64,000 bases of DNA from Desmonostoc muscorum LEGE 12446 (GTDB lineage: Bacteria > Cyanobacteriota > Cyanobacteriia > Cyanobacteriales > Nostocaceae): positions 7,091,001 through 7,155,000 of the forward strand of contig NZ_JADEXS020000001.1 of NCBI RefSeq assembly GCF_015207005.2, given 5' to 3'. Below, in pieces: positions 28,380 to 59,300 of the stretch; positions within the stretch are counted from its first letter, which is position 1; each line of letters starts with the position of its first letter. The notes beneath the pieces are model-generated. The model was given only the letters and a program-made list of their open reading frames with translations. It searched no databases and had not been told where the DNA came from. The translations under genes were made by a program, and so were the position numbers.

Positions 28380-31300
28380 ATGTTTGAACAATGTATTCAT
28401 CAGTTATTTGAAAGCCAGGTTGCGCGAACTCCACAAGCAATAGCTGTGGAATATGGCCACGAACAACTGACATACCAAGAATTAAATATTAAAGCTAATC
28501 AACTCGCTCATCATTTGCAAAAATTAGGGGTAAGGGCAGAGACCCTGGTAGGAATTTGCGTCGATCGCTCCTTAGAAATGATTGTGGGTTTGTTGGGAAT
28601 TCTCAAAGCCGGGGGAGCATACGTACCGCTAGATCCCGCCTATCCTACTGAACGATTGCAGTTCATGGTAGAAGATGCTCAAATCTCTATTTTGGTAACG
28701 CAAGAAAAATGGTCTAGTTTAATATCTGATTATTCAGGGCAGGTAATTTGTTTAGATAGTCACCAGGACGAGATATTTAACGACAGCAATGCCTACGGCG
28801 GGCAAAGCCAACACAATCTCATTAACACAGTCAAACCGAATAATCTAGCTTACGTCATCTACACATCAGGTTCAACTGGAAAACCCAAAGGAGTGATGGT
28901 TGAACATCATTCATTGGTGAATTTTATTCAGATGGCGTTGGCTTTGCCGGCCGTAGGCATCGCCCAATACAAAATCTCTGAGTGCGACCGGATTCTTCAG
29001 TTCGCCTCCATGAGTTTTGATGTAGCCGCAGAAGAAATATATTCCTGCTTAAGTTGTGGTGCAACTCTAGTGTTACGAACTGAAGAAATGATGAGTTCTG
29101 TAGCATCATTTGTACAACAATCTCAAAATTGGCAAATAACTATATGGGATTTACCCACAGCTTACTGGCATTTAATAGTCAATGAATTAGCCACTGGTAA
29201 AATAACATTGCCCCAATCATTGCGCTTGGTAATTATTGGCGGAGAAAGGGTACTACCAGAAAAAGTGAAAATGTGGCTCAAATGTGTAGGAAATTTCCCT
29301 GAATTGATCAATGCCTACGGCCCCACCGAAGCCACCATTGCAGCTATAAGTTGCTGCTTATCAAATTACACCAAACTAGAAAATACAGAAGTACCTATTG
29401 GTAAACCAATGGGGGAAAATATTCAAGTTTATGTGTTGGATCAAAACCTGCAACAAGTTCCAACCCAAGTAACAGGAGAAATACACATCGGAGGTGCTGG
29501 ACTTGCACGCGGCTATCTCAATCGCCCAGAATTAACAGCAGAAAAATTTATTCAAAATCCCTTTGGCGATTTTGGATTAGGAAACACTAGCGAAAATTTA
29601 GAACTACCTGAAATTGATTTAGAAAACAAATTTAATAATCCAAAATCCAAAATTCAAAATTCAAAATTATATAAAACTGGTGATTTAGGAAGATATTTAC
29701 CAGACGGTAACTTAGAATTTGTAGGACGCATTGACGAGCAGGTAAAATTTAATGGCTTCCGAATTGAATTAGGAGAAATTGAGTCTGTTCTCAATCAACA
29801 TTGCGAAGTATCTCAAAGCGTAGTCATTATTCGTGAAGATTCCCCTGGAAACAAACGTTTAGTAGCTTATATTGTCCCCCATCAAAAAACGGCGATTGCC
29901 CCCACAACTTTTGAAAGCTTCCTGAAAAAAAAGCTACCGAGTTACATGGTGCCAAGCATCTTTGTTTTCTTAGATGCTTTACCCCTCACCCCCAATGACA
30001 AAATCGATCGCCAAGCACTTCCTGTTCCTAATCTGCAAAAAACTTTTGTCGCTCCCCGGAATTCACAAGAAGAAGCCCTAGCAGAAATCTGGCGTCAAAT
30101 TTTTGGATTAGAACAGATTGGTATTGATGATAATTTTTTCCAGTTGGGTGGTCATTCTCTAATCGCCACACAAATTTTGTCTCGCATACGAGATGTTTTT
30201 CAAGTTGAACTATCCTTTAAACAACTGTTTGAAAATCCAACTATTGATGACTTAATTAAAGTCATTTTCCACCAACAGCAAATCAAACAGACATTCCCCA
30301 TAGCTAAAATTCAGCCGATTCCACGAGGGGGTTACTTACCCGTTTCCTTTGCCCAAGAGCGGGTATATTTCATTGAGCAATTAGCACCCTCCATGAGCGC
30401 TTACCAATTCCAAGAGAGTTTGCGCTTTCAAGGATATTTGAATATATCTATACTGGAAGAAAGTCTGGGCGAAATTTTGCATCGTCATGAGATTTTTCGC
30501 ACTACCTTTCCAGCCGTAGAAGGAAAGTTAGTACAATTAATTCATCCTCCTCAACCAGTAAAATTAGAAGTAATTGACCTGCAAAATTTTGCCAAATCTG
30601 AACAGGAAGCCGAAGTCGAAAGATTAACAGAGGTGGAAATTCACAAACCTTTTAATATTAGTGAGTTACCCTTAATTCGGTGGACGTTATTAAAATTAAG
30701 TGACCACGAACATGTATTAGTTCATGTTGAACATCACATGGTTCATGACGGTTGGTCATTTAATTTATTTTTGCGAGAATTATTAGCACTATATCAAGCC
30801 TTTTCTGAAGGTAAACCCTCTCCCCTAGCTGAACCATCACTTCAGTTTGCAGATTTTGCCCATTGGCAAAGACAGTGGGTGTTAACAGAGGAAGCACAAG
30901 CCCAGCTAGATTATTGGAAACAAAAATTATCTGGTAGTCCGCCTTTACTGGAATTACCTGGCGTTAGCCCGCGCCCAGTAGAACAAACTTACCAAGGCGG
31001 AATGCGGAGAATGGAACTTCCTCTTCATGTCTGCGAAGCCCTAAGAAATATGGGTCGTCAAGAAGGCGTAACCTTATTTATGAGTATGTTTACAGTTTTC
31101 GTAACCATGCTCTACCGCTACACCGGACAAGAAGATCTTTGCGTGGGTTCTGGAGTCGCTAACCGTCGTTGGCGAGAGACAGAAGGGTTAATTGGCATGA
31201 TTGTCAATAACATTGTTCTCCGCACAAATGTTTCCGGAAACCCCACCTTTCGAGAACTTCTGGCTCAAGTGCGTCAAGTCACCCTGGAAGGTTATGCTAA

Positions 31301-34300
31301 CGAAGACTTACCCTTTGATAAGGTGGTAGAGGCACTCAAACCAGAGAGGAATCTCAGCTATAATCCGCTGTTTCAGGTGATGTTTAGCTTCCATGATGCG
31401 CTGTTACCCGAATTGCGTTTACCAGGGTTGAGTATTAAACAGCATGAGGCACTCAACAATAAATCAGCCAAATTCGATCTTGATATTGTCGTTATTCCCC
31501 GTTCTGAACAACGAGTAGGGCGTAATTCCCAACATGAAGCCCAGGGAATCGAAACAGAGGGCATAACCCTTGTTTGGGAATATAACAGCGATTTATTTGA
31601 TGCCGCCACCATCGATCGCATGATGGGACAATATCAAACATTGGTAGAAGGAATTGTAGCTAACCCCGATTTACGAATTTCCCAATACCCGCTGTTAACA
31701 CCAGAACAACAGCAGCAATTATTAGTTGAGTGGAACGCAACAAAAACAACTTATCCCCAAGGGAAATGTATTCATCAGTTAGTTGAAGCACAGGTAGACA
31801 AAACTCCTGATGCAGTAGCAGTCATATTTGGGGGGCAAAAACTCACCTATCGGCAATTAAATGAACAAGCTAACCAACTCGCTCATTACCTAAAAACCTT
31901 GGGAGTAAAAGCTGATACATTAGTAGGAATTTGCATTGAGCGCTCCTTAGAAATGATAGTGGGACTATTAGGAATTCTCAAAGCGGGGGGTGCTTATGTT
32001 CCCCTAGATTCCGCCTATCCAGCCGAACGATTGAGCGAAATAGTAAATGATGCTCAAGTGCCGATTCTGGTAACGATGCAGCAATGGGCAACTGTATCAG
32101 CTGAACATTCTTTGGAAATAGTTTGTTTAGATACTCAAAGAGAATTGATTGCCAACCAGAGTAGAGAAAATCCTGACTCTGAAGTAGCAGACAGTAACTT
32201 AGCCTATGTTATCTATACATCAGGCTCCACAGGCAAGCCCAAAGGGGTGCTGATTGAACATCATTCATTGGTGAATTTTAGCCAAGCAGCATTGGCTCAA
32301 TATAAAATGACAGTTGGCGATTGCATTCTCCAATTTGCCTCAATTAGTTTTGATGCCGCCGCCGAAGAAATCTATCCGTGTTTAACTTGTGGTGGCACAT
32401 TAGTGCTGCGAACCGAAGAAATGTTGCAGTCTGTGTCAGCATTTGTGCAGCAGTCAAAAGATTGGGAATTAACAGTATGGGATTTACCTACAGCTTATTG
32501 GCATTTGTTAGTCAGTGAATTAGCCAGTGGCAATTTATTATTACCTGAATCATTAAGACTGGTAATTATTGGTGGAGAACGAGTGCTACCGGAAAAAGTT
32601 GCAATCTGGCATCAATTGGTGGGCAATTATCCACAGTTGATTAATAGTTATGGCCCGACTGAAGCCACTGTTGTTGCTACATTATCTGATTTGTCAGAAA
32701 ATGCCCTCAATCATTCAGAAGTCCCCATTGGTAAACCTATCAATAATGTTCAGGTATATGTGTTAGATAAATACTTGCAACCTGTTCCCATCGGAGTACC
32801 AGGGGAACTGCATATTGGTGGTGTGGGTGTGGCACGGGGTTACTTGAACCGTCCAGAATTAACATTAGAAAAATTTATCCTCAATCCCTTTACCGATTTT
32901 GGATTGCCGATTTTAGATTTTGGATTAGGAAATACTGGTGAAAATTTAGAATCTTCCCAACCTCTTGAATTAGAAAATCAATCCAATAATCCAAAATCCA
33001 AAATCCAAAATCCAAAATTATATAAGACTGGCGATTTAGTCCGTTATCTACCTGATGGCAATTTGGAATACTTGGGGCGAATTGATTCTCAAGTGAAGAT
33101 TCGCGGTTTTCGCATTGAACTTGGCGAAATTGAAACAGTTTTAAATCAACATCCCCAGGTAGCTCAAGCTGTTGTTATTGCCCGTGAAGACATTCCTGGC
33201 AATCAACGTCTCGTCGCCTACGTGGTTGGAAATCAAATCCAAATTGATGATATCCGCCAATTCCTCAAACAGAAGTTACCACCCTACATGGTTCCTTCTG
33301 CCTTTATCTTATTGGATCGTCTACCGATGACTCCCAATGGGAAAGTAGACTATCGTGCTTTACCTGCCCCAGATACTTCCCAGAGAAATTCAGAGGTTGA
33401 GTTTGTTCTTCCTCGGACTTTTGCAGAAGAAAAATTAGCTGCAATTTGGGCTGAAGTTTTGAGACGCTCAAATGTCAGCATTCACGACAATTTCTTTGAG
33501 TTGGGTGGCGATTCAATTATCAGCATTCAGATGATTTCTAGAGCCAATCAAGTCGGATTACATCTGACTCCCAAACAACTTTTTCAACATCAAACAATTG
33601 CAGAGTTAGCCACCGTTGTTGGTACAACCAGTCAAATCAAAGCCAATCAAGGATTAGTCACAGGTTCAGTACCGCTAACGCCTATCCAGCATTGGTTTTT
33701 CCAGCAAAATTTACCTGATGCTGACTACTTTAATCAGTCAGCAATGCTTGTGATTCCATCGGGGACAAAACCGGAGTTATTAAAACAAGCCGTGCAAGAA
33801 TTATTATGGCATCATGATGCGTTGCGATCGTGCTTTGCACGTCTCCCCTTGGGAGAATCGCAGTTCATCCGAGAAAGCATTCCTCCGCAACAAATTCATC
33901 ATCCGCCCCAAGAAACAGTACCTTTCACCATTGTTGATTTATCGGAACTTTCTCCCCAAGCACAACAAACTGCGATGCAGACAAAAGATGCCCAACTTCA
34001 AGCCAGCCTGAATTTATCATCAGGAGAAATTGTCCAAGTCGCCTTGTTCAACCTGGGGATAAATCAACCAAATCAACTACTATTTGTTATCCATCACCTA
34101 GCCGTAGATGGTATCTCATGGCGAATTTTACTCGAAGACTTGGCAACAGCTTATCAGCAGCTAAATCGTGCTGAAGCAATCAAATTGCCTGCTAAAACTA
34201 CTTCTTTTCAAGAATGGGCAAATCGGTTACAAGAATACAGTAAATCAGAAATTATTGCCAAAGAAATTGATTATTGGCTATCTCCGTTTCAGGGCGATAT

Positions 34301-35123: not shown

Positions 35124-35297
35124 ATTATAAGGCTATAAAATTACGAACCACAGAGGCGCAAAGGTCGCAGAAAATAAGAAAAACTCAATATTTCTCAAAA
35201 CTCTCCTCTCTGCGCCTCCGCGTGAAATAAATATTCACAACCAAAATAGGATAACTTTAGTACTTGATTACCTGAGTAAAAAATTTAAATTTAATTT

Positions 35298-38200
35298 ATG
35301 CATAAAATCGTGATTGGCTCTACTGATTCTGTTGATAATTTTTCTGCTTTAACTGAGCAAGAACGACATAAAATATTGTTGGAATGGAATGATACAACGG
35401 TAGATTATCCTAAAGATTTGTGCATACATCAGTTATTTGAAGCACAGGTGAAAAAAACTCCAGACAATATTGCTGTTGTCTTCAATGAGCAGAAACTTAC
35501 TTATCAACAATTGAACCATCAAGCCAATCAACTTGCACATTATCTGCAATCTTTGGGTGTAGGGGCAGAAGTTTTAGTCGGGATTTGCGTAGAGCGCTCT
35601 TTGGAAATGGTAGTGGGAATGCTGGGTATTCTCAAAGCAGGTGGAGCTTATGTACCGCTAGATCCAACATATCCCGAAGAACGTCTGAGCTTTATGCTGG
35701 CAGATTCTCAAGTGCAGGTGTTATTAACTCAGCAAAAGTTGGTTGCAGGGTTTAATGCAAGTGAGGCAAAGCTAGTTTGTCTGGATACTGATTGGGAATT
35801 GATTAACCAACACAGCCAAGAGAATCTCACTAGCAACGTCACGTCTGAAAACCTGGTTTATGTCATCTATACCTCTGGTTCTACGGGAACACCAAAGGGA
35901 GTAGCTGTACCCCATCGGGCTGTGAATCGGCTAGTATGCAATACTAACTACGTGCAGTTGACAGCTGAGGATTGCGTTGCTCAAGCCTCAAATGCTTCCT
36001 TTGACGCAGCTACATTTGAAATCTGGGGTTCTCTCATCCACGGGGCTAAGTTGGTAGTCATTCCTCAGAATGTTGTGCTTTCACCCCAGCATTTCGCAGC
36101 CTGCATCCGCGAACAAGGAATTAGTATATTATTCTTGACCACAGCCTTATTTAATCAGTTAGCGAGCATTGTTCCCCAGGCATTTAAAGATTTGCGATAC
36201 TTGCTATTTGGAGGCGAGGCTGTAGATCCTAAGTCCGTGAAAGCGGTTTTAACGAACGGATCGCCACAACGATTGTTGCATGTTTATGGCCCGACTGAGA
36301 ATACAACATTCTCTTGTTGGTATTTAGTTGAGGACGTTGCAGAAGGGGCAATAAATTTGTCCATTGGTCGTCCAATTTCCAATACACAAATCTACATACT
36401 GGACTCCCGACTGCAACCAGTTCCCGTTGGTACTCCCGGAGAATTATATATCGGCGGCGATGGCTTGGCACGAGGCTACTTAAACCGTCCAGAGTTAACT
36501 GAGGAAAAATTCATTCCCAATCCCTTTAAAAGAGGCAGGGGGGCAGAGGAGCAGGGGAGCAGAGGAACAGAAATTCTTCCTAATTCCCAATCCCCAGTCC
36601 CCAGTCCCCAATCCCCAGTCCCCAATCCCCGCCTTTACAAAACTGGGGATTTAGCCCGTTATCTACCAGATGGCAACATTGAGTTTCTGGGGCGAGTCGA
36701 TAATCAGGTGAAGATTCGCGGTTTTCGCATTGAATTAGGAGAAATTGAGGCGCTTTTGAGTCTACACCCGGATGTACAGCAGGTAGTGGTCATCGCTCGT
36801 GAAGACATCCCCGGTGATAAGCGGCTTGTTGCCTATATTGTCTTGAATCAAAAGCTTGAGACGATGCCTGCGGCGGGCTGCGCCTACGCCACTACCCTCA
36901 AATGCTTCCTCCAAGAAAAGCTGCCCCACTATATGGTGCCAGCAATATTTATTTTTTTAGACTCCTTGCCCCTGACGCCCAACGGGAAAGTCGATCGCCA
37001 GCATCTTCCCGCCCCCGATCGCACACGCCCCGATTTAGCAGAAACCTTTGTCGCTCCTCGTAACCCAATTGAAGAAAAACTAGCTCTCATTTGGGCTGAG
37101 TTACTGGGACTTGAGCAAATTGGAGTTAATGATAATTTTTTCCAGTTGGGTGGTCATTCCCTCATCGCCACTCAAATCCTTTCTCGCGTGCGCGAAGTTT
37201 CCAGCGTGGAGTTGTCGTTTCACCACATCTTTGAAAACCCTACGGTAGCGGGACTAGCTGGGGTAATCGAAAAGTGCAGTTTTCAACAAGAGCGATCGCA
37301 GCGTCCTGCCATCCAACGAATTGCCCGTGAAGGACTCTTACCAGTCTCCTTTGCCCAAGAGCGAGTCTACTTTATCCAGCAATTGGCACCTGAAAATAGC
37401 GCCTATCAATTCCAAGCAACTATGCGATTTCAGGGTCGGCTTGATGTGGCAATTTTACAACAGTGCCTCGATGAAATTGTGCAACGGCATGAAATCTTTC
37501 GCACAACTTATCCGGCGGTAAATGGGCAGCTATTTCAGGTAATCAACCCACACCAACCAATTAGCTTTAGTGCGATCGACCTGGAATCATTCGCTGAATC
37601 TGACCGTGAAACTGAGGCTCAAAAGCTAGTTGAACTAGAAGTGCAAAAGCCGCTTGACATTAATCAATTACCCTTAGTTAGGTGGGTTTTGTTGAAGTTA
37701 AGTCACCAAGAACATTTGTTGCTCCACATTGAGCATCACATGGTTCATGATGGTTGGTCATTCAACGTCTTTCTGGCTGAGTTGGTGGAACTTTATCAAG
37801 CCTTCTGTTTGGGTAATCCTTCTCCCCTAACTGAGCCAGTTTGGCAATTTGTGGACTTTGCCCATTGGCAGCGACAGTGGGTAAAAAGCCAGTCAGCCCA
37901 AGCTCAATTAAACTATTGGCAACAGAAACTATCCGGCAGTTCACCGCTGTTAGAATTACCCTATGACCGCCCGCGACCACCAGAGCAAACTTACAATGGC
38001 GATCAAATCAGGGTAGAACTGCCCATCGACTTGTGTGAATCCTTAAGAATTCTCAGCCGTCAAGAAGGTGTCACCTTATTTATGACGATGCTGGCAGTTT
38101 TTCTGGTCATGTTGCATCGCTACACTGGGCAAGACGACATTACCATCGGCACTGCTGTTGCCAATCGGCGGATGCATGAAATAGAGAAGTTAATTGGCAT

Positions 38201-41200
38201 GATTGTCAATAACTTGGTTTTACGCACCGATTTGTCAGGTAATCCCACATTTCGGGAGTTACTTGACCGAGTGCGTCAAGTGACGATGGAAGCTTATGCT
38301 AACGAAGACCTACCCTTCGATAAGGTGGTGGAAGTTCTCAAGCCAATACGCAACCTCAGCCACAATCCTCTGTTTCAAGTGATGTTCAGCTTCCATGATT
38401 CATCCATGCCAGACTTGAATCTCCCAGGCTTGGACATCAGTTTGCATGAACCTATCAGCAACAAATCCTCAAAGTTCGATTTGGATTTCCTGGTCATACC
38501 GCGTTCTGAACAACGGGTGCAAAACGGTTCCAAAACAAAAGCTAAGGGAATCACCCTCGTCTTAGAATACAACAGCGACCTCTTCGATGCTGCCACCGTT
38601 CAACGGATGTTAGAAGAGTATGAAAATTTACTCCATAGCATTATTACCAACTCAGAGCAGCGAGTTTCAGAATTACCCCTGTTGACCGTAAATCAACAGC
38701 AGTTGCTAAAGTCATGGAATAAAACTCAGCGTGATTATACTTACAAAAAGTGTATTCATAAATTATTTGAAACTCAGGTAGAATTAAAGCCAGATGCGAT
38801 CGCTCTAAAGCAAGATGGTCAAAAATTAACTTACCGTGAATTGAGCGATCGCGCCAATCAACTAGCCCACTATCTACAAAGTTTGGGAGTCAAGCCAGAA
38901 ACCCTTGTCGGTATTTGCGTTGAACGTTCCTTAGAGATGATTGTCGGCTTACTCGGTATTCTGAAAGCTGGTGGTGCTTATGTTCCCCTTGATCCTGCTT
39001 ATCCAAAAGAGCGATTAACTGATATTCAACAAGATACGCAACTGAGAATTCTGCTGACTCAAGAAAGATTCCAAGACAAATTGCCAGATTATCCCGCAAA
39101 AACAATCTGTTTAGATAAAGACTGGCCAGCGATCGCTCAACATAGTACGCGACAACCCATTAGTCAGGTTGAACTTCATAACCTCGCTTACATGATTTAT
39201 ACATCTGGTTCTACGGGTAAACCGAAAGGGGTGATGGTTGAACATCGGTCATTGTTGAATTTTGCGATCGCCGCCATTGATGAATATGGAATCAATGCCA
39301 GCGATCGAATTCTGCAATTTGCCTCTATTTGTTTTGATACATCTATTGAAGAAATCTTTCCTTGTCTGGCGGCTGGTGCAACATTAGTGCTGCGAACCGA
39401 AGAAATGCTGCACTCAAGTGATGAATTTTGGCGGTGTTGCCAACAATGGCAGTTAACTGTTTTGGATTTACCTACAGCTTATTGGCATCAGTTGGTGGCA
39501 GAACTCACCCCTGATGACTCCCGAATTCCTGAAAATCTGAGAACTGTGATTATTGGGGGAGAAGAAGCTCAACTAGAAAAAGTCAAGCGTTGGCACAGTA
39601 GTGTGGCTCATTTGCCCAATCCCCCGCAATTATTTAATAGTTACGGGCCAACAGAAGCAACAGTTATTACCACTTTACACCGCTTAAATTCCTCAGATAC
39701 TTCCGGCGTTGCCATCGGGCGACCCATCAGCAATGCTCAAGTTTATATCCTAGATCGATATCTGCAACCAGTACCCATAGGAGTTCCTGGGGAACTGCAC
39801 ATTGGCGGAGCAGGTTTAGCCAGAGGATATTGGCAACGCCCTGAATTGACGACTGAGAAATTTATCGAGAATCCCTTGAGCAATTTTGGATTTTCGATTG
39901 CCGATTTTGGATTAAGTGGCGATCGCAAAGAAACAAAAACTGTGGACATCACTCAGACAGTTAATAATCCAAAATCCAAAATCCAAAATCCAAAATTATA
40001 TAAAACAGGAGACTTGGCACGATTTCGCCCAGATGGCAACCTAGAATATCTCGGTCGAGTTGACGATCAGGTGAAGATTCGCGGTTTCCGCATCGAGTTG
40101 GGAGAAATCGAGACGGTGTTGAATCAACATCCCCAGGTGTTTCAAGCGGTTGCGATCGCCCGTGAAGATATTCCTGGGCAAAAACGCCTTGTGGCTTATG
40201 TTGTCCCTAAGGTAGGGGCAGGGGCGCACAGCTGTGCGCCCCTACGGGATTTCCTCAAGGGAAAACTGCCTAATTATATGGTGCCTTCGGCTTTTGTGCT
40301 GCTAGAAACACTGCCCATGACACCCAATGGCAAAGTAGACTACCGCGCCCTACCAGTCCCCGAATTTACCCGCAGTCCAGAAGATAACTTTGTAACTCCA
40401 AGCACCCCGACAGAAGAGAAATTAGCGGCCATTTGGTCAGAAATTTTAAGATTAGAAAAAGTCAGTATCCACGATAACTTCTTTGAACTAGGCGGAGACT
40501 CGATTCTCAGCATTCAAGTAATTTCCCGTGCTAATCAGGCAGGTATCCAAATTGCCCCCAAACAGTTATTTCAGCACCAAACCATTGCTGAGTTAGCTGC
40601 TGTAGCAGGCATCACTCGCTCCATCAAAGCCGAACAAGGGTTAGTAACTGGTGCGGTGCCGCTGACACCCATTCAACAATGGTTTTTTGAGCAGCAATTA
40701 CCCGAAGTTCATTACTTTAACCAGTCAGCACTGGTGGAAGTGCCGCCAGATTTGAAAGCAGAGTTATTACAGAAAATTGTGCAACAATTGCTACTGCACC
40801 ACGATGCTTTGCGTCTGCGGTTTGTACAAGAAGGGGAAAACTGGCAGCAAATTAACGCCGCCGAGGAAATTGTGTCATTTAGGACGATGGATTTGTCACA
40901 CTTGCCAATAGAAGAACAGCAAACAGCCATCAAAGCTGCCGATACTGAACTTCAGGCTAGTTTAAACTTATCCACCGGACCGATCGCACGAGTAGCACTG
41001 TTTCAATTAGGCAAAGATCGACCAGGTAGGTTACTGTTCATCATCCATCATTTAGCAGTAGATGGCATCTCCTGGCGGATTTTACTAGAAGACTTGGCTA
41101 GTGGTTACCAACAAATCAGTCGGGGCGAAGGAATTAAACTACCAGCCAAGACAACTTCGTTTCAATATTGGAGCGATCGCCTTTTAGAATATGGACAATC

Positions 41201-42101: not shown

Positions 42102-42113
42102 TCATTAGTTATT

Positions 42114-42223
42114 CCCCAGTCCCCATTCCCCAGTCCCCACTCCCCAGTCCCCAGTCCCCAGTCCCCATTCCCCAGTCCCCATTCCCCAGTCCCCACTCCC
42201 CAGTCCCCACTCCCCACTCCCCA
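42114..42223. repeat. Heptanucleotide STRR (CCCCA[G/T/C]T)15 between aptA2 and aptB
   Basis: Fifteen 7-base units (CCCCAGT, CCCCATT, CCCCACT) run to 42218 with a partial unit after, ending six bases before the aptB ATG. A GTCATTA repeat precedes them. The aptB start has no Shine-Dalgarno sequence because the repeat occupies that place. Confidence 0.92.
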
Positions 42224-42228
42224 TCATC

Positions 42229-45200
42229 ATGAACAACATCGAAGACCTTTATGAACTTTCGCCCATGCAGCAGGGGATGTTATTTCATACCCTTTATGCA
42301 CCAGAATCGGAAATCTATTTTGAGCAGTTGCTTTGTATCCTCTCAGGAGAATTAAATTTTTCTGCCTTTGAGAAAGCTTGGCATTCTGTTGTGGCGAGAC
42401 ATGCAGTTTTACGCAGTTCCTTTCATTGGGAAGAGATAGAAAAACCCTTGCAAATGGTGAATAAGCAAGTGGATCTTTCTTGGGAAAAGCTGGACTGGCG
42501 GCATTTAACAGGTGATGAACAACAACAAAGTTTAGAGGATTTTCTCAAAAGCGATCGCCAAAAAGGATTTGACCTTGCTGAAGCTCCCTTAATGCGCTTC
42601 ACCCTAATTCAACTAAAAGAACAAACCTACCAATTTATCTGGAGTCATCATCATATTCTCTTTGACGGCTGGTCGATGCAAATTGTCCTCAAAGAGGTTT
42701 TAGCTTTCTATGAGGCACATCAACGGGGTGAACAGTTACGCCTATTACCCTCTCGTCCTTATCGAGATTATATTTATTGGTTACAACAACAAGATATTGC
42801 TCAGGCAAATCAATTTTGGCAACAAACTCTCCAGGGGTTTGAAGCTCCTACTTATTTAGGAAGAAATAGGGGACTAGCAATATATAATGAACAACATTTT
42901 CAATTCTCTCAAACGCTAACTGAAAAGCTACAATCTTTCGCGCGACAGCATCATTTAACTTTCAATAATTTGGTGCAAGGAGCATGGGGATTACTCATTT
43001 CTCGCTACAGTGGAGAAAATGATGTGGTCTTTGGTGCAACTGTATCTGGTCGCCCACCGACCCTTGAGAAAGTAGACTCAATGGTGGGGCTATTTATCAA
43101 CACTCTCCCCATACGAATAAAAGTTAGTGACAAAACAGAATTATTACCCTGGTTGAAGCAATTACAAACCCAAGGATTTGAACAGGAAGAATATGCTTAT
43201 TGTTCTTTAGCAGAAATTCAAACACTGAGTGATATTCCCGCCGGATTGCCACTATTTGAGAGTATTTTAGTATTTGAAAATTATCCCATAGATTCCGCTG
43301 AGCAGGAAAACAAAAAAACTTTAGAAATTAGCCATGTTCGTTGTTTTGAACGGACGAATTATCCTCTTTCGGTGGTGATTAATCCTGAATCACAATTGTC
43401 TGGCAGAATTATCTATGATATCAGCCGCTTTGAGCAACAGACAATTGAACGCATGATTGGACATTTCCAAACATTGCTAGCAGGAATGGTAGGCAATCCG
43501 CAACAATATATTTCCCAATTATCTCTGCTCAGTGCTGCTGAAGAGGAAGAATTACGGCTGCAAGAAAATAATCAAAAGATAGATTCGATTAACTATAAAT
43601 GTATTCATAGTTTATTTGAAGAACAGGTAGAAAAAACTCCCGATGCAATAGCGATTGTGTATGAAAAGCAATATTTAACTTATCGGGAGTTGAATAACCG
43701 CGCCAATCAATTAGCGCATTATTTACAAACGCTGGGAGTAAAACCAGAGGTACGGGTGGGGATTTGTGTAGAGCGATCGCCTTTAATGGTAATCGCAATA
43801 CTCGCTATTCTCAAAGCGGGTGGGGCTTATGTTCCTCTAGATGCGGCGTATCCATCCGAAAGATTAGCATTGATGATGGAAGATGTACAAACACCCATCT
43901 TACTAACACAAACTAATTTGAAAAATAGACTCCCACTCACTGCTCAAACTGTGGTGAATCTGGATTCAGATTGGGAAATAATTGACCAATACAAAGAAGA
44001 TAATTTACTGAGTGAAGTTAATCCAGAAAATTTAGCATATATCATTTATACCTCTGGCTCCACAGGAACACCAAAAGGTACAGAAGTTCCCCATCGTAGC
44101 TTCATTGGTTTTATGTTTGGAGTTGATTATATTCATCTTGATGCACAACAAATTTGGCTGCAACATTCATCGATTTCCTGGGATGCACTAACTCTAGAAC
44201 TTTGGCCGCCCTTACTTTATGGTGGGCGTTGTGTGCTTTATCCAGGACAAATTCCCACACCTGCGGACATAGGCAAAATCATCCAAGAACAAAGGGTTAA
44301 TATCCTATTCCTGACTACGGCCTTATTTAATCTCATGATTGATGTGATGCCCGAAGGATTGTTAGGGGTTAAACAACTGATAACAGGGGGAGAATCCGTT
44401 TCTATCGCCCATATTCATCGCGCCTTAGAGATATTACCAGGGACACAAATTATTCATGGCTATGGGCCTTCAGAATGTACAGTATTTACTTGTTGTTATC
44501 CAATTCCCGAACAAATTGCTGAAAATGTACAGTCAATTCCCATTGGCAAACCTATTGGCGATAGAAAAGTGTACCTGCTAGATAAAGATTTACACAGAGT
44601 TCCCATTGGGGTTTCTGGGGAACTTTATATAGGTGGGGCGAGTGTTGCTAGAGGTTACTTAAATCAACCAACATTAACCCGTGAAAAATTTATTTCTAAT
44701 CCTTTTATCGAGGGAGATACACTTTACAAAACCGGAGATTTAGTCCGCCGTCTTCCTGATGGAAATCTGGAATTTTTAGAGCGAATTGATAACCAAGTTA
44801 AAATTCGTGGTTTTCGCATTGAATTAGCAGAAATTGAGGCATTTTTAAATCAACACCCTGACATTAAGCAAGTCGTAGTGATTGTGCGGGAAGATGAACC
44901 TGGAAACAAGCTTTTAGTTGCCTATCTCGTTGTCAAGGATAATCAACCAACCCCTAGCAGTCTGCGAAACTTCCTCAAGACAAAGCTACCTGACTATATG
45001 ATTCCCGCTGCTTTCGTATTTCTGCAGGAATTACCCTTAACTCCTAATGGTAAAATCAACAGCCGTGCTTTGCCTGTTCCAGATGCTTCCCAAAGAAATC
45101 TAGAGGTTGCTTTTATTGCTCCTCGCACGCCTACCGAACAAGAATTAGCGACTATTTGGGCTGAAGTTCTCAAATTAAAACAAATTGGAATTCACGATAA

Positions 45201-45438
45201 TTTTTTCGAGTTGGGTGGACATTCTTTACTAGCTACTCAAGTAATTTCTCGATTAAGAGAAACCTTTTCTCTAGAATTTACTCTGCGTTATTTATTTGAA
45301 AATCCCACCATTGCAGAACTCGCCCAAAAAGTCATCGCTCAACAAATTGAACAAACAGAAAATGATGCCCTAGCACAGATTTTAGGTGAAGTTGATGGCT
45401 TATCAGAGGAAGAAGTGACACAACAATTACTCTTTTGA
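42229..45438 (+). CDS. aptB: AptB-like NRPS: C-A-T (Val/Ile)
   Basis: 1069 residues. C 42229-43560 is of the D-L type (starts NIEDLYELSPMQQGMLF, catalytic HHHILFDGW), as needed downstream of an epimerase. A 43609-45070 has code DALFIGGVFK, closest to Val/Ile pockets. T 45130-45330 carries LGGHS. The N-terminus begins at the acceptor side of a docking pair that would receive D-Lys-bearing chains from either AptA1 or AptA2. The C-terminal tail (EEEVTQQLLF) is a typical cyanobacterial NRPS tail. The A-domain loop between NPF and LYKTGDL is only five residues here, showing the short form of the loop filled by repeats in AptA1 and AptA2. The ATG follows directly on a CCCCAGT repeat with no ribosome binding site. 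Confidence 0.92.
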   Translation: MNNIEDLYELSPMQQGMLFHTLYAPESEIYFEQLLCILSGELNFSAFEKAWHSVVARHAVLRSSFHWEEIEKPLQMVNKQVDLSWEKLDWRHLTGDEQQQSLEDFLKSDRQKGFDLAEAPLMRFTLIQLKEQTYQFIWSHHHILFDGWSMQIVLKEVLAFYEAHQRGEQLRLLPSRPYRDYIYWLQQQDIAQANQFWQQTLQGFEAPTYLGRNRGLAIYNEQHFQFSQTLTEKLQSFARQHHLTFNNLVQGAWGLLISRYSGENDVVFGATVSGRPPTLEKVDSMVGLFINTLPIRIKVSDKTELLPWLKQLQTQGFEQEEYAYCSLAEIQTLSDIPAGLPLFESILVFENYPIDSAEQENKKTLEISHVRCFERTNYPLSVVINPESQLSGRIIYDISRFEQQTIERMIGHFQTLLAGMVGNPQQYISQLSLLSAAEEEELRLQENNQKIDSINYKCIHSLFEEQVEKTPDAIAIVYEKQYLTYRELNNRANQLAHYLQTLGVKPEVRVGICVERSPLMVIAILAILKAGGAYVPLDAAYPSERLALMMEDVQTPILLTQTNLKNRLPLTAQTVVNLDSDWEIIDQYKEDNLLSEVNPENLAYIIYTSGSTGTPKGTEVPHRSFIGFMFGVDYIHLDAQQIWLQHSSISWDALTLELWPPLLYGGRCVLYPGQIPTPADIGKIIQEQRVNILFLTTALFNLMIDVMPEGLLGVKQLITGGESVSIAHIHRALEILPGTQIIHGYGPSECTVFTCCYPIPEQIAENVQSIPIGKPIGDRKVYLLDKDLHRVPIGVSGELYIGGASVARGYLNQPTLTREKFISNPFIEGDTLYKTGDLVRRLPDGNLEFLERIDNQVKIRGFRIELAEIEAFLNQHPDIKQVVVIVREDEPGNKLLVAYLVVKDNQPTPSSLRNFLKTKLPDYMIPAAFVFLQELPLTPNGKINSRALPVPDASQRNLEVAFIAPRTPTEQELATIWAEVLKLKQIGIHDNFFELGGHSLLATQVISRLRETFSLEFTLRYLFENPTIAELAQKVIAQQIEQTENDALAQILGEVDGLSEEEVTQQLLF

Positions 45439-45874: not shown

Positions 45875-45999
45875 GTTATACTAAATAGTTTAGCTATCCT
45901 AAAATCACTTGTAAAAGTCTCTCTCTGCGTCTCTGTAGGTCAATAATTAATGCGGAATAATCATAAAATCCCAAAAACCAAGAACAGGCTCAACTAATT

Positions 46000-47323: not shown

Positions 47324-50300
47324 ATGAGCGATTTACTAAAACATCTTGAAAGCCTTTCTCCTGAAAAACGAGAATTAGTCCTACAAAAACTCAAAAAGCA
47401 ACAGCAATCTCCACTCCTGACATCCATATCGCGCAAACAACCCCTTTCTCTTTCTTTCGCGCAACAAAGGCTGTGGTTTCTCGACCAACTCGAAGGTGAA
47501 AATTGTGTCTACAACGTCCCGTTTTTCTGGCAAATAAAAGGATTTATTAACATACCTGCTTTAGAACAAGCTATTAAAGAAATTGTTCAACGCCATGAAG
47601 TCTTACGTACCAGTTTCTCAGTTGTCGATGGGTTGCCGATACAGGTAATTCACCCAGATTTGAAACTGACAATGCAAGTGCTGGACTGGCGACAATTCAC
47701 AGAAGAAGACCAGTTAAGCACAGCCACCCAGTTAGCCACAAAAGAATTACAACAGCCATTTGATTTAGCAAACGCACCTTTGCTACGGGTCAAATTGTTG
47801 CAACTAACTGACCAATCCCATCTGCTATTGCTCGTCATCCATCATATCGTTTGTGATGGCTGGTCAATGGAGATATTCCGCCGGGAATTGTTCGCCCTTT
47901 ATACCGCCTTCTGCGCTGGCCAAGCGTCTCCCTTACCCGAATTATCGCTGCAATATGCCGATTTCGCCCACTGGCAAAGGCAATGGCTACAAAAAGAGGT
48001 ACTCCAAAGACAACTCGATTACTGGCAAAAACAATTAGCCGCAGTTCCGCCCCTGTTAGAATTGCCCATAGATAGACCACGCCCGTCAACTCAAACCTTC
48101 AGGGGGCGCAGCGAGTTTGGCGAACTCAATCAAGATTTAACACAGAAGTTAAAGCGTTTGAGTCAGGAGTCAGGAACAACTCTGTTTATGACTTTACTGA
48201 CAGCATTCACGCTCTTACTTTCGCGCTACAGTGGACAGGAGGATATTGTTGTTGGTTCTGCGATCGCTAATCGCAACCGTCGTGAAACTGAACCACTAAT
48301 TGGCTTTTTTGTCAATACCTTAGCATTACGTACCAATCTCGAAGGAAATCCAAGTTTCTTAGAATTACTTGAACGAGTCAAGCAAGTAACCCTCGATGCC
48401 TACGACCATCAAGATTTACCCTTTGAGAAATTGGTTGATGAATTGGGTATAGAGCGATCGCTCTCTCATCATCCCCTGTTTCAAGTCGCTTTTAGCTTGC
48501 AAAATCAAACCAAGCAACAACTTGAAACCAATGGATTAACCCTAACTCCCTTCAAGTGGGAAAACACAACAACTCTGTTGGATTTGTCACTAATTTTCCA
48601 CGAAACTCCTCAAGGCTTGACAGGAGAATGGGAATATGCATCTGATTTGTTTGCAGCCGAAACAATTCAACGGATGGTGGAACATTTTGCAGTTTTACTT
48701 CAGGGAATTGTTGATAACCCCCGACAATCCATAAATACCCTACCGTTGATGACAGCAGCGGAACTGCTACAACTACAACGCTGGAATCAAACTCAAACCG
48801 AATATCCTGAAGATAAAACTCTAGTTGACTTATTTGAACAACAAGTTGAAAAAAATCCTCATAATATTGCTTTGGTATTTGAATCCCAAAGCTTAACTTA
48901 TCAGCAATTAAATCAAAAAGCTAACCAATTAGCTCATTATTTAATTCAAAATTACCAAATTCAACCAGACACTTTAATTGGTGTCTGCGTTGACCGTTCT
49001 TTGGAAATGATTATTGGTGTACTCGGTGTCCTCAAAGGAGGTGGTGCTTATGTACCAATTGATCCCAATTATCCACAAGAGCGGATTGGATTGATGTTAG
49101 AAGACTCTGGAATATCGGTGTTACTAACCCAAAATTTTCTCCTAGACAAATTACCCCTATCTGAACTAGAAAACTCTCCTCAAGTAATTAGTTTGGATGA
49201 AGAACCTTTTAGCGAAGAATTAACAGAAAATCCCAGTCCAAAAACTACGCCTGATAATTTAGCTTATGTAATTTATACCTCTGGTTCCACAGGAAGACCC
49301 AAGGGGGTGATGATTGAACATCGCGGGCTGACCAATGTAACTTTAGCAGTGGCTAACACTTTGCAAGTTAAATCACAAAGTCGTTTTCTTCAATTTGCTT
49401 CTTTTAGTTTCGATATTTCCATTGCTGAAATTGCTCCAACTTTAGCCACGGGTGCTTGTTTATATTTGGCTAAAAAAGAGACTTTGTTACCCGGTCAAGG
49501 CTTAATAAATTTCTTAGCTGAACGCCAAATCTCCCACATCATTGTACCTCCTTCGGCCTTATCAGTATTACCTCAAGCAACTTTACCCGATTTGCAAACC
49601 ATAAGCGTTGGTGGTGAAGCTTGCCCAGCGGAATTAGTGGCACAATGGGCAACAGGACGACGTTTCATCAATGGCTATGGCCCTACAGAATCTACAGTTG
49701 TTGCAAGCATAGCTCTTTGTCAACCCAATGGCAAAAAACCACGAATTGGTAAACCATTAGCTAATACCCGCATCTACATTTTAGATGCTCACAATCAACC
49801 ATTACCCCCAGGAATACCTGGAGAATTGTGCATCGCTGGCGTAGGTTTAGCAAGAGGCTATCTGAATCGTCCTGAAACTACCGCCGAAAAATTTATTGAA
49901 GTTGAATTATTCGGGAAAGTTGAGCGAATTTACAAAACTGGCGATTTAGGAAAATGGGGAGATGATGGCAACCTTGAGTATTTAGGTCGCATTGACGATC
50001 AAGTTAAATTACGGGGCTTCCGCATCGAATTGGGTGAAATTGAATCGCTATTATTGCAACATCCATCGGTTAAAGAAGCTGTTGTAATTTTACATGAAAC
50101 TGATAGTAATCCCAGGTTAATAGGTTATGTGACTGCGGCGGAAAAATCCGTTAATTTAGTAGGGGCGCACAGCTGTGCTACCCTACTCAAGGATTACCTG
50201 AAAATTCGTCTGCCGAATTATATGGTTCCTAGCCAGATTATTGTACTGGATAAATTTCCCCTTAGTCCTAACGGTAAACTAGATCGGAAAGCATTACCAA

Positions 50301-53300
50301 CACCAGATATAGCCACTTCAAATAACTGGGAAATGCCAGCCACTCCAACAGAAGAATTGCTGGCTAGTTTATGGCAAGATATTTTAAAAGCTAAGTCTGT
50401 TGGTCGTCGAGACAACTTCTTTGAATTGGGTGGACATTCCCTATTAGCAACCCAATTAGTTACCCGCATTCGTGATAGTTTTGGGGTGCAATTGCCTGTC
50501 CGGAAAATATTTGAGCAGAGTGTTTTGTCTGAGTTAGCAATAGAAATTGACGGTAGGGGCGCACAGCTGTGCGCCCCTACTTCGGGAATCATCACACCTC
50601 AGCCGGAAAATGAACCCAAAACTCTGTCTTTTGCCCAATCAAGACTGTGGTTTTTAGCCCAGCTTGAAGGCACCGGAACCTCGGCTACCTACAATATGTC
50701 AACAGCGCTGCAACTTGATGGCAAGTTGAATATAGATGCGTTGCGGGCAAGTTTTGAGTATCTCCTCCAACGCCATACCATTCTCCGCACCTACTTTCCG
50801 GCGCTGTCAGGAGAAGCCCAACTAGTCGTTCAAAATGCAGAAGATATGGAAGTACTGGCTATTGCAGATTTACAGCATCTCGATCGCCACACGCAAGCAG
50901 AAACTGTACAACGATTATCAGATATTCACGCCCAAGAACCCTTCGATTTAAATACCGGTCCTCTGTTCAAAGCGAAACTGCTGCAATTAAGCCAAGAGAA
51001 AAATATCTTGCTCTTAAATATGCACCACATTATCAGTGATGGCTGGTCAATGGGGATATTTAAGCGCGAATGGGAACAGGCTTATGCTGCTTTTGCTGGG
51101 GGAAATGCTCCGAATTTGTCACCATTGCCGATTCAGTATAGCGATTATGCAGCTTGGCAGCGTAGTTGGTTACAAGGAGAAATTTTAGAAAGTCAGGAAA
51201 ATTACTGGAAACAACAACTAGGCGATGCTCCCCGATTGCTAGATTTGCCTACCGATTATCCCCGCCCAGCGCAGCAAAGTTACCAAGGTGGACGCGAGGA
51301 ATATTGTCTCAGCAGCGAATTGACCCAGAAACTCAAAATCGTCAGTCAAAAACACGGCGTGACTTTGTTTATGACTCTATTGACGGCTTTTAATATCTTA
51401 CTATCTCGTTACAGCCGCCAAGAGGATTTATGTGTTGGAACTGCGATCGCTAACCGCACCCATAGCTACACAGAAGGGTTAATCGGCTTTTTTGTCAATA
51501 CTTTAGTATTACGCAGCAAAATCAAGCCAGAGCAAGGATTTGGCGAATTACTCCAACAAAGCCGCCAAACTTGCTTAGATGCCTACGCTCATCAAGATAT
51601 TCCCTTTGAATATTTAGTAGAACAGTTGCAACCAGAACGCAGTCTCAGCCATAACCCCTTATTTCAAGTGATGATAGTGTTGCAAAACACCGAAGGGGCA
51701 GGGAAAAATGTTAGTTTATCAGGGCTTGATATTAAATGGTTAGAGCAAAGTTATCCATTTGCCAAGTTTGATTTGACATTGGATCTTTGCGAAAGGAACG
51801 ACCAGCTGCATTGTATGTGGGAATATGCCACCGATTTATTTGAGGGACAAACGATTCGGCGGATGGCGGGACATTTTGAAGTTTTGCTGGAAGCAATCGC
51901 CGAAAATCCCCAACAGGCGATCGGTAAGCTGCCCTTAATGACAACAGCAGAAATTCAGCAACTGCGAGTTTGGAATCAAACCAATATTGATTATCCCGAA
52001 AACCAGACACTAGTGACTCTGTTTGAACAACAGGTAGCAGAAACTCCCGATAATATTGCCGTGGTGTTTGAAGATCAAAGCTTGAGTTATCAAGAATTAA
52101 ATCAAAAAGCAAATCAGCTGGCAGATTATTTGTTGCAACTAAAAAAAGAACAACAATTGCCTGATAATCCATTGATAGCGATTTGTGTAGAGCGATCGCT
52201 TTCTATGGTCATTGGCTTATTTGGTATCCTCAAAGCAGGCGGGGCTTATGTGCCAATTGACCCCAACTACCCACAAGAGCGAATTAATTTTATGCTCGAA
52301 GACTGTGGGGCAAGAGTTTTGCTCACCCATAGTCAACTCAAATTGGGGATTGGGGATTGGGGATTAGGGACTGGGAATAAAGAAACTCTTTCCCACTCCC
52401 CAGTACCCAGTACCCAGTACCCAATACCCACTCCCCACTCCCCACTCCCCACTCCCCACTCCCGAAAAATCCTATATTTAGATGAGGAGAAATTTACCAA
52501 CCAATCTCCAGAAAACTCCCAAATCCAAAATCCAAAATCTAAAATCCAAAATCAAGACGATTTAGCTTACGTCATTTACACATCAGGTTCTACTGGCCGA
52601 CCCAAAGGTGTACAACTAACCCACCGTGGTTTAAGTAACTATTTACACTGGGCAAAAGATTTCTATGCAGTAGCCCAAGGACAAGGTACGCCTGTACAGT
52701 CTTCCCTTAGCTTTGATGCCACCATTACCTCTCTATACCTACCTTTAATTTGTGGGCGTACCACCACCTTGGTAAGAGAAAAACAAGAAATTGAAGCTTT
52801 AGCAAATATCGTCAAACACAACAATCATCTCTCTCTAGTCAAAATCACGCCTTCCCATCTGGAAATACTCAATCAGCAACTCGATCCTGATGTGATGCCG
52901 AATCGAGTTAATGCCTTTGTTTTAGGCGGTGAGGCATTACACGCTAACCAAATAATGCCGTGGCTGACTCATGCACCTGATACCAGACTGATTAACGAAT
53001 ATGGGCCGACAGAAGCAGTTGTGGGTTGTTGTGTCTACGAAGCAACCAAAAAAATGGATCTGGTTAGCGATTTATTGATCGGACAGCCAATTGCCAATGC
53101 CCGTATTTACATCTTAGATAACCAAAATCAACCCCTACCTCCTGGCATACCTGGGGAACTTAGTATTGCTGGTGCTGGTTTAGCGCGTGGCTATCTCAAC
53201 CGTCCCGAACTCACAGCCGAAAAATTCATCGAACTTGAATTGTTAGGCGAACGAGAACGAGTCTACAAAACCGGAGATTTAGCCAGATGGTTGCCAGAGG

Positions 53301-56222: not shown

Positions 56223-56312
56223 AAATTGTAAAAACTCTCCAACTTACTATTTACTGTTAATAATTCCTGACTCATATCGACAGTCAATTTTGATTGTGTC
56301 CAACTAAATATT

Positions 56313-59300
56313 ATGACAAAAAATCAGCAAGTGGTTTCTTTAATGCAGCGTTTACAGAATATAGGCTGCCGAATTTGGGCTGAAGATGATAAGTTACGAA
56401 TTCGCACTAGCAAAAACGCCTTAACCTCTGAACTCAAGCAGGAAATTCAAATCAACAAAGCAGATATATTAGCATTTTTAAATTCTGCTAAAACCCAAGC
56501 TGTAATACCAGAAGAAATTCCCGTTTTAAGAGATGATGCTCCGAAACCCCTTTCCTTTGCTCAACAACGCCTCTGGCTGTTAGCCCAACTTCAAGGGCGA
56601 TCGGCTAGTTACAACATGCCGATCGCTTTACAACTCGACGGCAACCTAAATATCCATGCCCTGCATTCTAGTTTGGCTTATCTGCTTAACCGCCATGCCA
56701 CCCTCCGAATGTATTTTCCCACAGTAGCAGGACAACCCCAAGTCGCAATCCAAAATTTAGACAACATCGAAGTTTTAACCTACCAGGGACTGGGGACTGG
56801 GGACTGGGGACTGGGGACTGGGGACTGGGAAAGAGTTTCACCAATGCCCAATGCCCAATGCCCAACTATCCAACATTTAATCGATGCTCATGCTCAAGAA
56901 CTGTTTGACTTAAATACTGGGCCTTTGTTCAAAGCCAAACTGCTGCAACTCAAAGAACAAAAATATGTGTTGCTCATTAATATGCATCACATTATCAGTG
57001 ATGGCTGGTCAATGGGTGTCTTTGTTCGTGAGTTACGGCAAGCTTACATCGCCTTTACCCAAGGTCAGACTCCAAACCTTGCCCCTCTGGCCATTCAATA
57101 CAGCGACTATGCAGCTTGGCAACGAAACTGGTTACAAGGGGAAGTATTAGAAAACCAAATCAACTATTGGAAACATCAACTCAAGGATGCTTCCCCATTA
57201 CTGGAGTTACCCACCGATTATCCCCGTCCAGCACAGCAAAGCTACCGAGGCGCACGCCATCTCTACTCTCTAACACCAGAATTAACTCTTGCTATTAAAA
57301 CCCTCAGTCAACAACAAGGCACAAGTTTGTTTATGACCTTGTTGGCGGCTTTGAGTATTCTGCTTTCTCGTTACAGTCGCCAAAACGATCTCTGTATTGG
57401 CTCTCCCATTGCCAACCGCACACATAGCCAAACAGAATCATTAATCGGCTTTTTTGTCAATACATTGGTGCTGCGTAACCAAATCAAACCTGAGCAAAAC
57501 TTTATCGAGTTCCTGCAACAAACTCGCCAAACTTGTTTAGATGCATACTCTCATCAAGACATCCCCTTTGAGTTTCTGGTAGAAAAATTACAACCAGAAC
57601 GCAGCATGAGTCATAATCCCTTATTCCAGGTGATGTTAGCAGTGGAAAATGATGAAAGTGCCGACTTGAATTTTCCAGGACTAGAGATTGAATCGCTTGG
57701 AGTAACCTGTCCCTTTGCTAAGTTTGACCTAACACTCATGGTTGTAGAATCTGACAACCAGTTAAATTGCTCTTGGGAATACGCTACCGATTTGTTTGAG
57801 AAAAGTACTATCCAACGGATGGCAGAACAATTTGAAGTTTTACTCAAAGGAATTGTTGATAACCCGAACCAACCTATCAAGAGTTTGCCTTTGATGACAG
57901 CAGCGCAACTTCTGCAACTACAACGCTGGAATCAAACTCAAACCGAATATCCTGAAGATAAAACTTTAGTTGACTTATTTGAACAACAAGTTGAAAAAAA
58001 TCCTCATAATATCGCTTTGGTGTTTGAATTCCAAAGCTTAACTTATCAGCAACTAAATCAAAAAGCTAACCAATTAGCTCATTATTTAATTCAAAATCAC
58101 CAAATTCAAGCAGACACTTTAATTGGTATCTGCGTTGACCGTTCTTTAGAAATGATTATTGGTGTACTCGGTGTTCTCAAAGCTGGTGGTGCTTATGTGC
58201 CCATTGACCCCAATTATCCACAAGAACGGATTGGGTTGATGTTAGAAGATTCTGGAATATCGGTCTTACTAACCCAAAGTTTTATTCTAGAAAAATTACC
58301 TCTGGCTGAACTAGAAAATTCTCCTCAAGTAATTTGTTTGGATCAAGAAAATTTTACCGAAGAGTTAATAGAAAATCCCAGTCCCAAAAGTAAACCTGAT
58401 AATTTAGGTTATGTAATTTATACTTCTGGTTCCACGGGAAGACCCAAAGGAGTGATGATTGAGCATCGAGGACTAATAAATATGACTTTGGCGATCGCTC
58501 AAGTTTTGCAAATTCAACCCCAAAGCCGTTTGCTTCAGTTTGCTTCTTTCAGCTTCGATGCCTCAATTTGGGAAATTGCCACTGCCCTTGCCGCAGGCGC
58601 TTGTTTATATCTTGCTAAAAAAGAAACCCTGCTACCAAGTCAAGACTTAGTGAAGTTTTTAGGCGATCGCCAAATTTCCCATATCACCTTACCTCCTTCA
58701 GTCTTATCTCTACTACCACAAGCAACCTTACCTGATTGGCAAGTCGTAGTTACTGCTGGTGAAGCTTGCCCAACAGAATTAGTTACCCAGTGGGCAAAGG
58801 GACGGCGTTTTTTTAATGGCTACGGGCCGACGGAATCTACAGTTTGTGCAGCGATCGCTCTTTGCCAACCCAATGGCAAAAAACCACCAATTGGTAAACC
58901 GTTAGCCAATATTCGCATCTACATTTTAGATACTCACAATCAACTTCTACCTCCAGGAATACCTGGAGAATTGTGCATTGCCGGCGTAGGTTTAGCAAGA
59001 GGCTATCTCAATCGTCCTGAAACTACCGCCGAAAAATTTATTGAAGTTGAATTATTCGGTAAAATTGAGCGAATTTATAAAACTGGCGACTTAGCAAAAT
59101 GGAATTGTGATGGCAACCTTGAATATCTAGGTCGTATTGACGATCAAATAAAATTACGGGGCTTCCGCATCGAATTAGGTGAAATTGAATCGCTATTATT
59201 GCAACATCCATTAGTTAAAGAAGCAATAGTAACCTTATATAAAACTGAAAGCAACCAGAGTTTAGTTGCCTATGTAACGGGAGAAATTACAACTGATTTA

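Follow-up and report, generated by a model that had tools for sequence, protein, structure and literature searches.

Hairpin-forming short repeats in the A6-A7 loop of cyanobacterial peptide synthetase adenylation domains

The window analysed here is a stretch of 64,000 nucleotides of Desmonostoc muscorum LEGE 12446 (bases 7091001-7155000 of contig 1; genome of 9.6 Mb). It contains an upstream nonribosomal peptide synthetase (NRPS) open reading frame (ORF; window 1-15709) and an apt-type cluster, whose gene names are the labels of the first-pass annotation. The subject of this study is the loop between motifs A6 and A7 of the NRPS adenylation (A) domain, which is filled in frame with short repeat DNA; the motif names A3 to A9 are used in their customary sense. 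Abundant repeats, together with tolerance of this loop, probably explain the fills best.

The A6-A7 loops of the window

Between the NPF and LYKTGD motifs, the A domain of aptB has 5 residues (IEGDT), and the same stretch is far longer elsewhere. The first-pass annotation had described these longer loops as filled with repeat DNA, and a filler is present at every site that it named. All fills are in frame and stop-free, and consist of heptamer arrays, a period-8 G-rich repeat or a palindrome:

29565..29669, forward strand: aptA1 A1 loop fill; ATTTTGG arm, spacer and CCAAAAT/TTCAAAA heptamer arm (29637-29668), AATCCAAAATCC-type
32892..33020, forward strand: aptA1 A2 loop fill; ATTTTGG/ATTTTAG copies, spacer and CCAAAAT array (32988-33018), AATCCAAAATCC-type arm
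36528..36635, forward strand: aptA2 A1 loop fill; period-8 GCAGGGGA-type repeat (36535-36571), then CCCCAGT/CCCCAAT heptamers (36577-36630)
39879..39998, forward strand: aptA2 A2 loop fill; inverted arms 39882-39914 and 39965-39997 (ATTTTGG, AATCCAAAATCC-type), spacer with GCGATCGC
42229..45438, forward strand: aptB, with the short-loop A domain used as the comparison case
1694..1728, forward strand: upstream NRPS A1 loop palindrome of AAGTCAC-type units
6335..6373 (about), forward strand: upstream NRPS A2 loop, G-rich filler
9529..9565, forward strand: upstream NRPS A3 loop palindrome of AAGTCAC-type units
14162..14196, forward strand: upstream NRPS A4 loop palindrome of AAGTCAC-type units

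All four aptA1 and aptA2 loops are thus filled as annotated, although the filler of aptA2 A1 differs from that of the other three. Tandem-repeat scans of the window identified period-7 arrays of the CCAAAAT, TTCAAAA and CCCCAGT types and, in aptA2 A1, the G-rich repeat of period 8. Sixteen period-7 arrays were counted; ten of them lie inside NRPS ORFs and none of these ten interrupts a frame, in agreement with the earlier description of elements that stay in frame without stops.

The frame of the upstream NRPS starts before the window start (open frame of 6581 amino acids, aa). The palindrome in its A1, A3 and A4 loops and the G-rich filler in A2 are present as described, but the data do not support the palindrome as an intergenic repeat. 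It occurs at seven distinct places in the whole genome; six are A-domain loops, and the genome table places the seventh (6633847) next to an A domain. Its candidacy as a dispersed repeat was rejected, as no place away from A domains turned up in the whole genome, and it appears to have spread by module copying. The G-rich filler shows no dispersed-repeat status by the 12-mer test (at least 5 copies in a 0.29 Mb sample of host non-coding sequence). The loop type of these modules is also seen in a further NRPS upstream (L178).

Distribution of long loops and origin of their fills

Insertions were profiled in A domains only, using a hidden Markov model (HMM) built from short-loop domains, and a loop was called long at 23 or more residues, counted from F to D. 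Long loops are present in 75 of 225 distinct cyanobacterial A domains, and 36 of the 56 insertions of at least 15 residues in these domains fall inside the loop, which takes up 16 of 439 columns. The next insertion places are columns 50-59 (5) and 240-249 (4). Loci fetched with heptamer queries (L001-L008, L153-L171) are excluded from the 225-domain counts and from the 33-loop set used for polarity and folding; they are included in the counts based on 235 domains, 85 long loops and 150 short loops, and in the 75% clusters, the repeat-cluster count, the breakpoint pairs and the 259-domain tree.

The window's own genome has a long loop in 20 of 45 A domains, and loci of Planktothrix, Microcystis and Crocosphaera (L092, L101, L102) have none in 15. 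Among 25 domains of non-cyanobacterial loci, 24 loops were readable and one is long. In a mixed protein set (the best 120 of 7991 proteins) the GY..TGD stretch reaches at least 35 residues in 8 of 148 loops, three of them in proteins named Nostoc. The idea that a long loop is ordinary in all NRPSs was rejected on these last two counts. Elsewhere in the order, outside the window's family, 4 of 29 loops reach 35 residues or more among the matches listed (30 loci, 12 hand-picked large genomes). A strict CCAAAAT-type pattern, requiring two heptamers and YKTGD, was found in 9 of 388 genomes of the order at 15 distinct sites; eight of the nine genomes belong to the window's family and one to another family of the order, and a reversed-pattern control gave 0 in the genomes listed.

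Clustering of 235 cyanobacterial domains at 75% gave 100 clusters; a long loop is present in 35 of them, and 11 are mixed. At least 42 short/long changes are required on a FastTree tree of 259 domains with the loop columns excluded, a tree that is approximate because of recombination. It might be proposed that the repeats serve as recombination joints for the exchange of A-domain parts between modules, given that A domains are strongly mosaic, with 3391 of 33411 pairs differing by at least 30 identity points across the two sides of the loop. However, switches from low to high identity fall at columns 260-294 in 52 of 54 cases and at 295-299 in two, with none from column 300 on, and switches from high to low fall at columns 360-379 (17 of 29) and 60-109 (12 of 29). 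Because the loop columns 312-325 were masked, any switch inside them would have appeared at their edges. This explanation is very improbable, and at the protein level a recombination joint at the loop was rejected by the breakpoint positions. The clustering of identity switches upstream of the loop, at columns 260-299 (54 of 54 low-to-high), is as expected of subdomain exchange.

Most of the long loops carry repeat DNA. With 12-mers present in at least 5 copies (both strands counted) in the 0.29 Mb non-coding sample of the host, matches were obtained in 64 of 85 long loops and 0 of 150 short loops, and in 40 of 1175 control windows of 60 nt from the same domains. Since short loops have less DNA and few 12-mers, the control windows are the fairer comparison; chance is an unlikely source of the loop repeats. 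Repeat clusters inside A domains lie at columns 310-329 in 48 of 64 cases. The first-pass annotation would have been undermined by long loops unrelated to repeats, and the 64 loops speak against that. The fills are diverse: besides other types, there are heptamers (CCAAAAT, CCCCAGT and AGGAGGC), GCAGGGGA octamers and short inserts whose ends are inverted.

Close relatives show the same sites in different states. From F to D, the aptA1 A1 loop has 46 residues in the window and 17 in N. calcicola and D. geniculatum, whose core identities to the window domain are 95.8% and 95.5%, and it is also short in CHAB 5824, N. foliaceum and CCCryo 231-06. The empty site of N. calcicola reads CCTTTTGACAATTCAAAATT, a possible seed. 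The aptA1 A2 loop has one more tandem copy in N. calcicola, and is short in D. geniculatum, CHAB 5824 and N. foliaceum. Among seven strains, the aptA2 A1 loop contains octamer plus heptamer repeats in three, octamer plus other sequence in one, a 24-nt insert with inverted ends in one (L100) and is empty in two. A second observation that would have spoken against the annotation, namely distant orthologues with the same residues but no DNA repeat, was not made; orthologues show an empty site.

In the genome at large, 434 period-7 arrays of at least 20 nt were counted in a 1.6 Mb sample, with 45 well inside ORFs of at least 100 aa and 389 elsewhere (ORF ends included). Per kb, the arrays are about 30-fold rarer inside such ORFs than elsewhere.

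Reading frame, polarity and protein context

As 7 is coprime to 3, a heptamer array gives one cyclic heptapeptide in all three forward frames (PKSKIQN from CCAAAAT; PQSPVPS from CCCCAGT), and octamers behave alike, 8 also being coprime to 3. In a unit test, neither CCAAAAT nor CCCCAGT gives a stop on either strand. Two heptamer types from non-coding parts of the window, CTAAAAT (27869) and TAACTCC (60629), have stops in every frame; the stop content of types inside and outside ORFs is partly definitional, as ORFs exclude stops, and was not used as evidence of selection. The heptamer arithmetic is likewise a property of the sequence rather than evidence of selection, and the net length of a fill must still divide by three. 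Across all loci, with overlapping copies counted, A6 and A7 share one frame in 248 cases and 11 lack an in-frame A7. One of the 11 (L121, 14611) has A7 in a frame other than that of A6, beyond a G-rich repeat; the contig of L121 is a draft, and this frame break may be a sequencing error.

The repeats have a marked polarity. The 1.6 Mb sample contains 318 strongly G- or C-skewed arrays, and neighbours less than 150 nt apart have the G-rich array first in 64 of 72 cases, the C-rich array first in 1 and the same sense in 7. At 150-500 nt the order is G-then-C in 8, C-then-G in 4 and same sense in 2. C-then-G is the commonest order beyond 500 nt, as expected if each G/C pair is one unit. In 66 close G/C pairs (window included) the spacers measure 6 to 143 nt, and the arms are of identical unit in only 4. 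The same polarity is seen in the 33 distinct loops of at least 30 residues, in which the G-rich half comes first in 28, last in 2 and neither in 3; the corresponding figures for 99 control windows are 22, 18 and 59. Most of the loops therefore share the polarity seen in intergenic hairpins, which favours their entry as units.

Folding energies below z = -2 (mononucleotide shuffles) were obtained for 13 of the 33 loops vs 4 of the 99 controls. Together with the repeated filling of A6-A7, these low energies could be taken to mean that the loop is selected because a disordered insert or an mRNA hairpin is useful, for example in ribosome pausing for co-translational folding or in partner docking. 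Against this stand orthologues of the same cluster without an insert, fill content that varies between strains, fills with a single arm (L100, L103, L107) and the same kinds of repeat in unrelated proteins, which make selection of the loop quite unlikely. The annotation had proposed a tolerated and possibly selected surface loop; tolerance is borne out, and no evidence of selection was found in these data.

The AlphaFold2 model of aptA1 A1, based on 50 sequences, has a mean predicted local distance difference test (pLDDT) score of 83.7. Values below 50 are confined to residues 341-368 (the insert) and the short stretches 82-84 and 131-136, whereas the ten residues past 370 have a mean pLDDT of 94; the insert stops just before YKTGD. 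The model matches ApnA A1 structures with a best TM-score of 0.82, the closest folds being 4D56, 4D4I, 4D4G and 4D4H (entries named APNA A1). The insert is probably a disordered peptide on a normally folded domain, as far as a predicted structure can indicate.

Related repeats also occur elsewhere in the window:

52342..52463, forward strand: aptC second A domain, before YTSGSTG; ATTGGGG array (52342-52370), then CCCAGTA/CCCCACT array (52399-52463), in frame
52521..52553, forward strand: aptC second A domain, directly before YTSGSTG; CCAAAAT array
56786..56865, forward strand: aptD, inside the Condensation match (79-532); ACTGGGG array (56786-56829), then CCCAATG array (56841-56865), in frame
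27703..27899, forward strand: non-coding copy; ATTTTGG arm (27703-27733), second tract (27766-27791) and CTAAAAT arm (27869-27899)
40220..40243, forward strand: second palindrome family AGGGGCGCACAGCTGTGCGCCCCT in aptA2 A2, in frame, about 215 nt past YKTGD, model column 402
50155..50190, forward strand: related palindrome in the aptC first A domain, at the same A-domain column (402) as 40220-40243

The elements previously noted in aptC and in the aptD C domain are thus present as heptamer arrays, and the non-coding DNA near 27700 does carry related arms at 27703-27733 and 27869-27899. The second palindrome family (GTAGGGGCGCACAGCTGTGCGCCCCTAC-like) has dozens of places in the genome, with a further member at 50553-50580 (aptC) and a related sequence at 18440-18461 (non-coding). 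A 16-copy CCCCAGT-type array (42113-42223) takes up most of the gap between aptA2 and aptB.

The elements are not particular to NRPSs. Pfam was run on ten hand-picked ORFs with inner arrays, among which are Mfd, GyrA, MutL, a phytochrome, histidine kinases, a protein like pyruvate phosphate dikinase, a cyclase and an oxidoreductase; in the last two the array lies among the 40 N-terminal residues, where a misassigned start codon is possible. Some inner arrays fall inside a matched Pfam domain (HATPase_c, GAF), and those of GyrA and Mfd site 2 lie between the listed matches. The MutL array is at the start of the DNA_mis_repair match, and so may be a loop of that domain. Selected flanking motifs were used to delimit the variable stretch in 12 genomes of the genus; it has 30-47 residues in GyrA, 23-57 at Mfd site 1 and 14-48 at Mfd site 2 (each read in 12 of 12 genomes), and 19-75 in MutL (10 of 12). 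All three proteins have different repeats in different strains, and since like repeats occur in them, the phenomenon is not NRPS-specific. In some strains the MutL stretch (L240-L251) holds another palindrome, of the TGTACAGACGCGATTAATCGCGTCTC type; in others it holds heptamer peptide of as many as 75 residues.

These observations suggest the following course. Nostoc-type genomes carry many hairpin-forming short repeats, often composed of a G-rich heptamer array, a short spacer and a C-rich heptamer array, and also octamers and palindromes, which would enter or expand at many places. Within genes they would survive only if the net length is a multiple of three, no stop is introduced and the site is a loop or linker tolerant of insertions and deletions. 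Units of 7 and 8 nt being coprime to 3, and CCAAAAT and CCCCAGT being stop-free on both strands, more of these events would be survivable, and the A6-A7 loop, as the most permissive place of the NRPS A domain, would be refilled repeatedly with different repeats.

Several points weigh against this explanation. The HMM was seeded with short-loop domains, which favours the calling of insertions in the loop, and A domains are related and recombining, so the counts are not independent events. The 12-mer library comes from one genome, and 21 of 85 long loops have no match to it. The empty aptA1 A1 site already reads AATTCAAAATT, and slippage from such seeds could build some arrays. GyrA shows no empty state in the 12 genomes. 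The distribution of the repeats, their frame and polarity, the empty sites and the low model confidence of the insert are observed directly; both the mechanism of entry and the neutrality of the fills are what we infer from these patterns. Finally, ACTGGGGA in the TGD codons follows 24 of 85 long loops vs 14 of 150 short loops, a hint of site preference.

This hint would fit site-directed insertion, in which a DNA motif of the loop, such as ACTGGGGA, draws elements by microhomology, as would the exact pairing of the CCCCAGT array with ACTGGGGATT at 36642. However, ACTGGGGA is missing from 61 of 85 long loops and is not confined to the CCCCAGT type (4 of 10; other types 20 of 75), and codon choice depends on lineage in domains that are not independent. 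Site-directed insertion is thus unlikely, and abundant repeats meeting a tolerant loop are preferred. A broader proposal, which is possible though somewhat doubtful, is that the composite heptamer hairpins, with a G-rich arm ahead of a C-rich one and mostly with different units in the two arms, are mobile in their own right. In heterocystous cyanobacteria they would steadily supply fixed acceptor loops, both in NRPSs and in proteins of replication and repair, with new disordered peptide that is frame-neutral, and these loops would evolve by element replacement rather than by point mutation.

Significance and comparison with known systems

With 33 distinct long fills recorded for a single loop, and with close relatives in which the site is empty, non-coding cyanobacterial repeats are tied to protein evolution in a countable way. 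Repeat-filled loops and the stretches in housekeeping proteins show, as a natural record, which places in proteins accept new sequence, and for NRPS engineering they point to a naturally tried insertion site beside a catalytic motif. They also explain odd low-complexity stretches that trouble annotation. Furthermore, the loop fills offer a test set for how heptamer hairpins move, and the G-arm-first polarity sets a simple constraint on any model of hairpin origin.

Small dispersed repeats (SDR) of Nostoc are elements of 21-27 nt in eight described families. The 24-nt insert of L100 would fit this range in size. Nostoc SDRs are named in PMC3116915, and gene-breaking miniature inverted-repeat transposable elements (MITEs) are reported in Anabaena sp. 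90 (PMC3542288).

The closest relatives of the heptamer arrays are the short tandemly repeated repetitive (STRR) sequences. STRR heptamers are known from filamentous cyanobacteria and GGGGA(C/T)T repeats from Nostoc; intragenic copies have been counted, and 68% of the repeats of Nostoc PCC 7120 are intergenic (PMC4692102), and STRR hairpins lie near hydrogenase genes (PMC2670836). Likeness extends to 7-nt units that are dispersed, mostly intergenic and hairpin-capable in described cases (PMC4692102, PMC2670836). The arrays studied here have tandem 7-nt units in about three copies or more and many dispersed, mainly intergenic copies, and their hosts are filamentous heterocystous cyanobacteria, namely the window's own genome and loci of Nostoc, Desmonostoc, Brasilonema and Dendronalium. 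By contrast, the available parts of these accounts contain no report of one protein loop refilled by several repeat families (PMC4692102, PMC2670836). Few pairs capable of forming inverted repeats are described in PCC 7120 (PMC4692102), whereas G-arm/C-arm pairs dominate here, all heptamer types counted. A refilled loop and a polarity rule were not found among the literature titles and abstract openings listed, which is weak evidence of absence given the few subscription papers reachable.

Rickettsia palindromic elements (RPEs) are inserted in frame in unrelated protein genes, with a length of about 150 bp and a conserved peptide (PMC10969869). The elements of the window had been likened to them, and palindromic repeats in frame within protein genes are indeed common to both (PMC10969869). 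The resemblance holds for dispersed hairpin repeats in frame in a tolerated loop, but the fills comprise several repeat types, mainly heptamers of the STRR kind, rather than one RPE-like family; the loops range in length from 23 to 68 residues, counted from F to D, and their fills are of several unrelated kinds. Compared with RPEs as described, the heptamer arrays give the same heptapeptide in any frame and place several repeat types at one site.

Intragenic repetitive extragenic palindromic (REP) sequences of the GTAG/CGTC type lie within proteins, including those of DNA repair, where they have been suggested to form flexible linkers or loops, and they occupy about the same site in recB of two Xanthomonas species (PMC3733652). 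Short palindromes inside proteins, DNA repair proteins among them, are therefore a shared trait (PMC3733652). The available part of that work makes no mention of NRPS A domains or of heptamer arrays (PMC3733652), and the hotspot described here is common to many modules and repeat types. The palindrome at 50553 starts with GTAG; GTAG-tagged REPs are short stem-loops that have GTAG at one end and are linked to a RAYT transposase. Interrupted A domains, in turn, carry auxiliary domains inserted at loops, A8-A9 among them. Their inserts are folded enzyme domains, whereas the A domains studied here have received short repeat peptides, mostly between A6 and A7.

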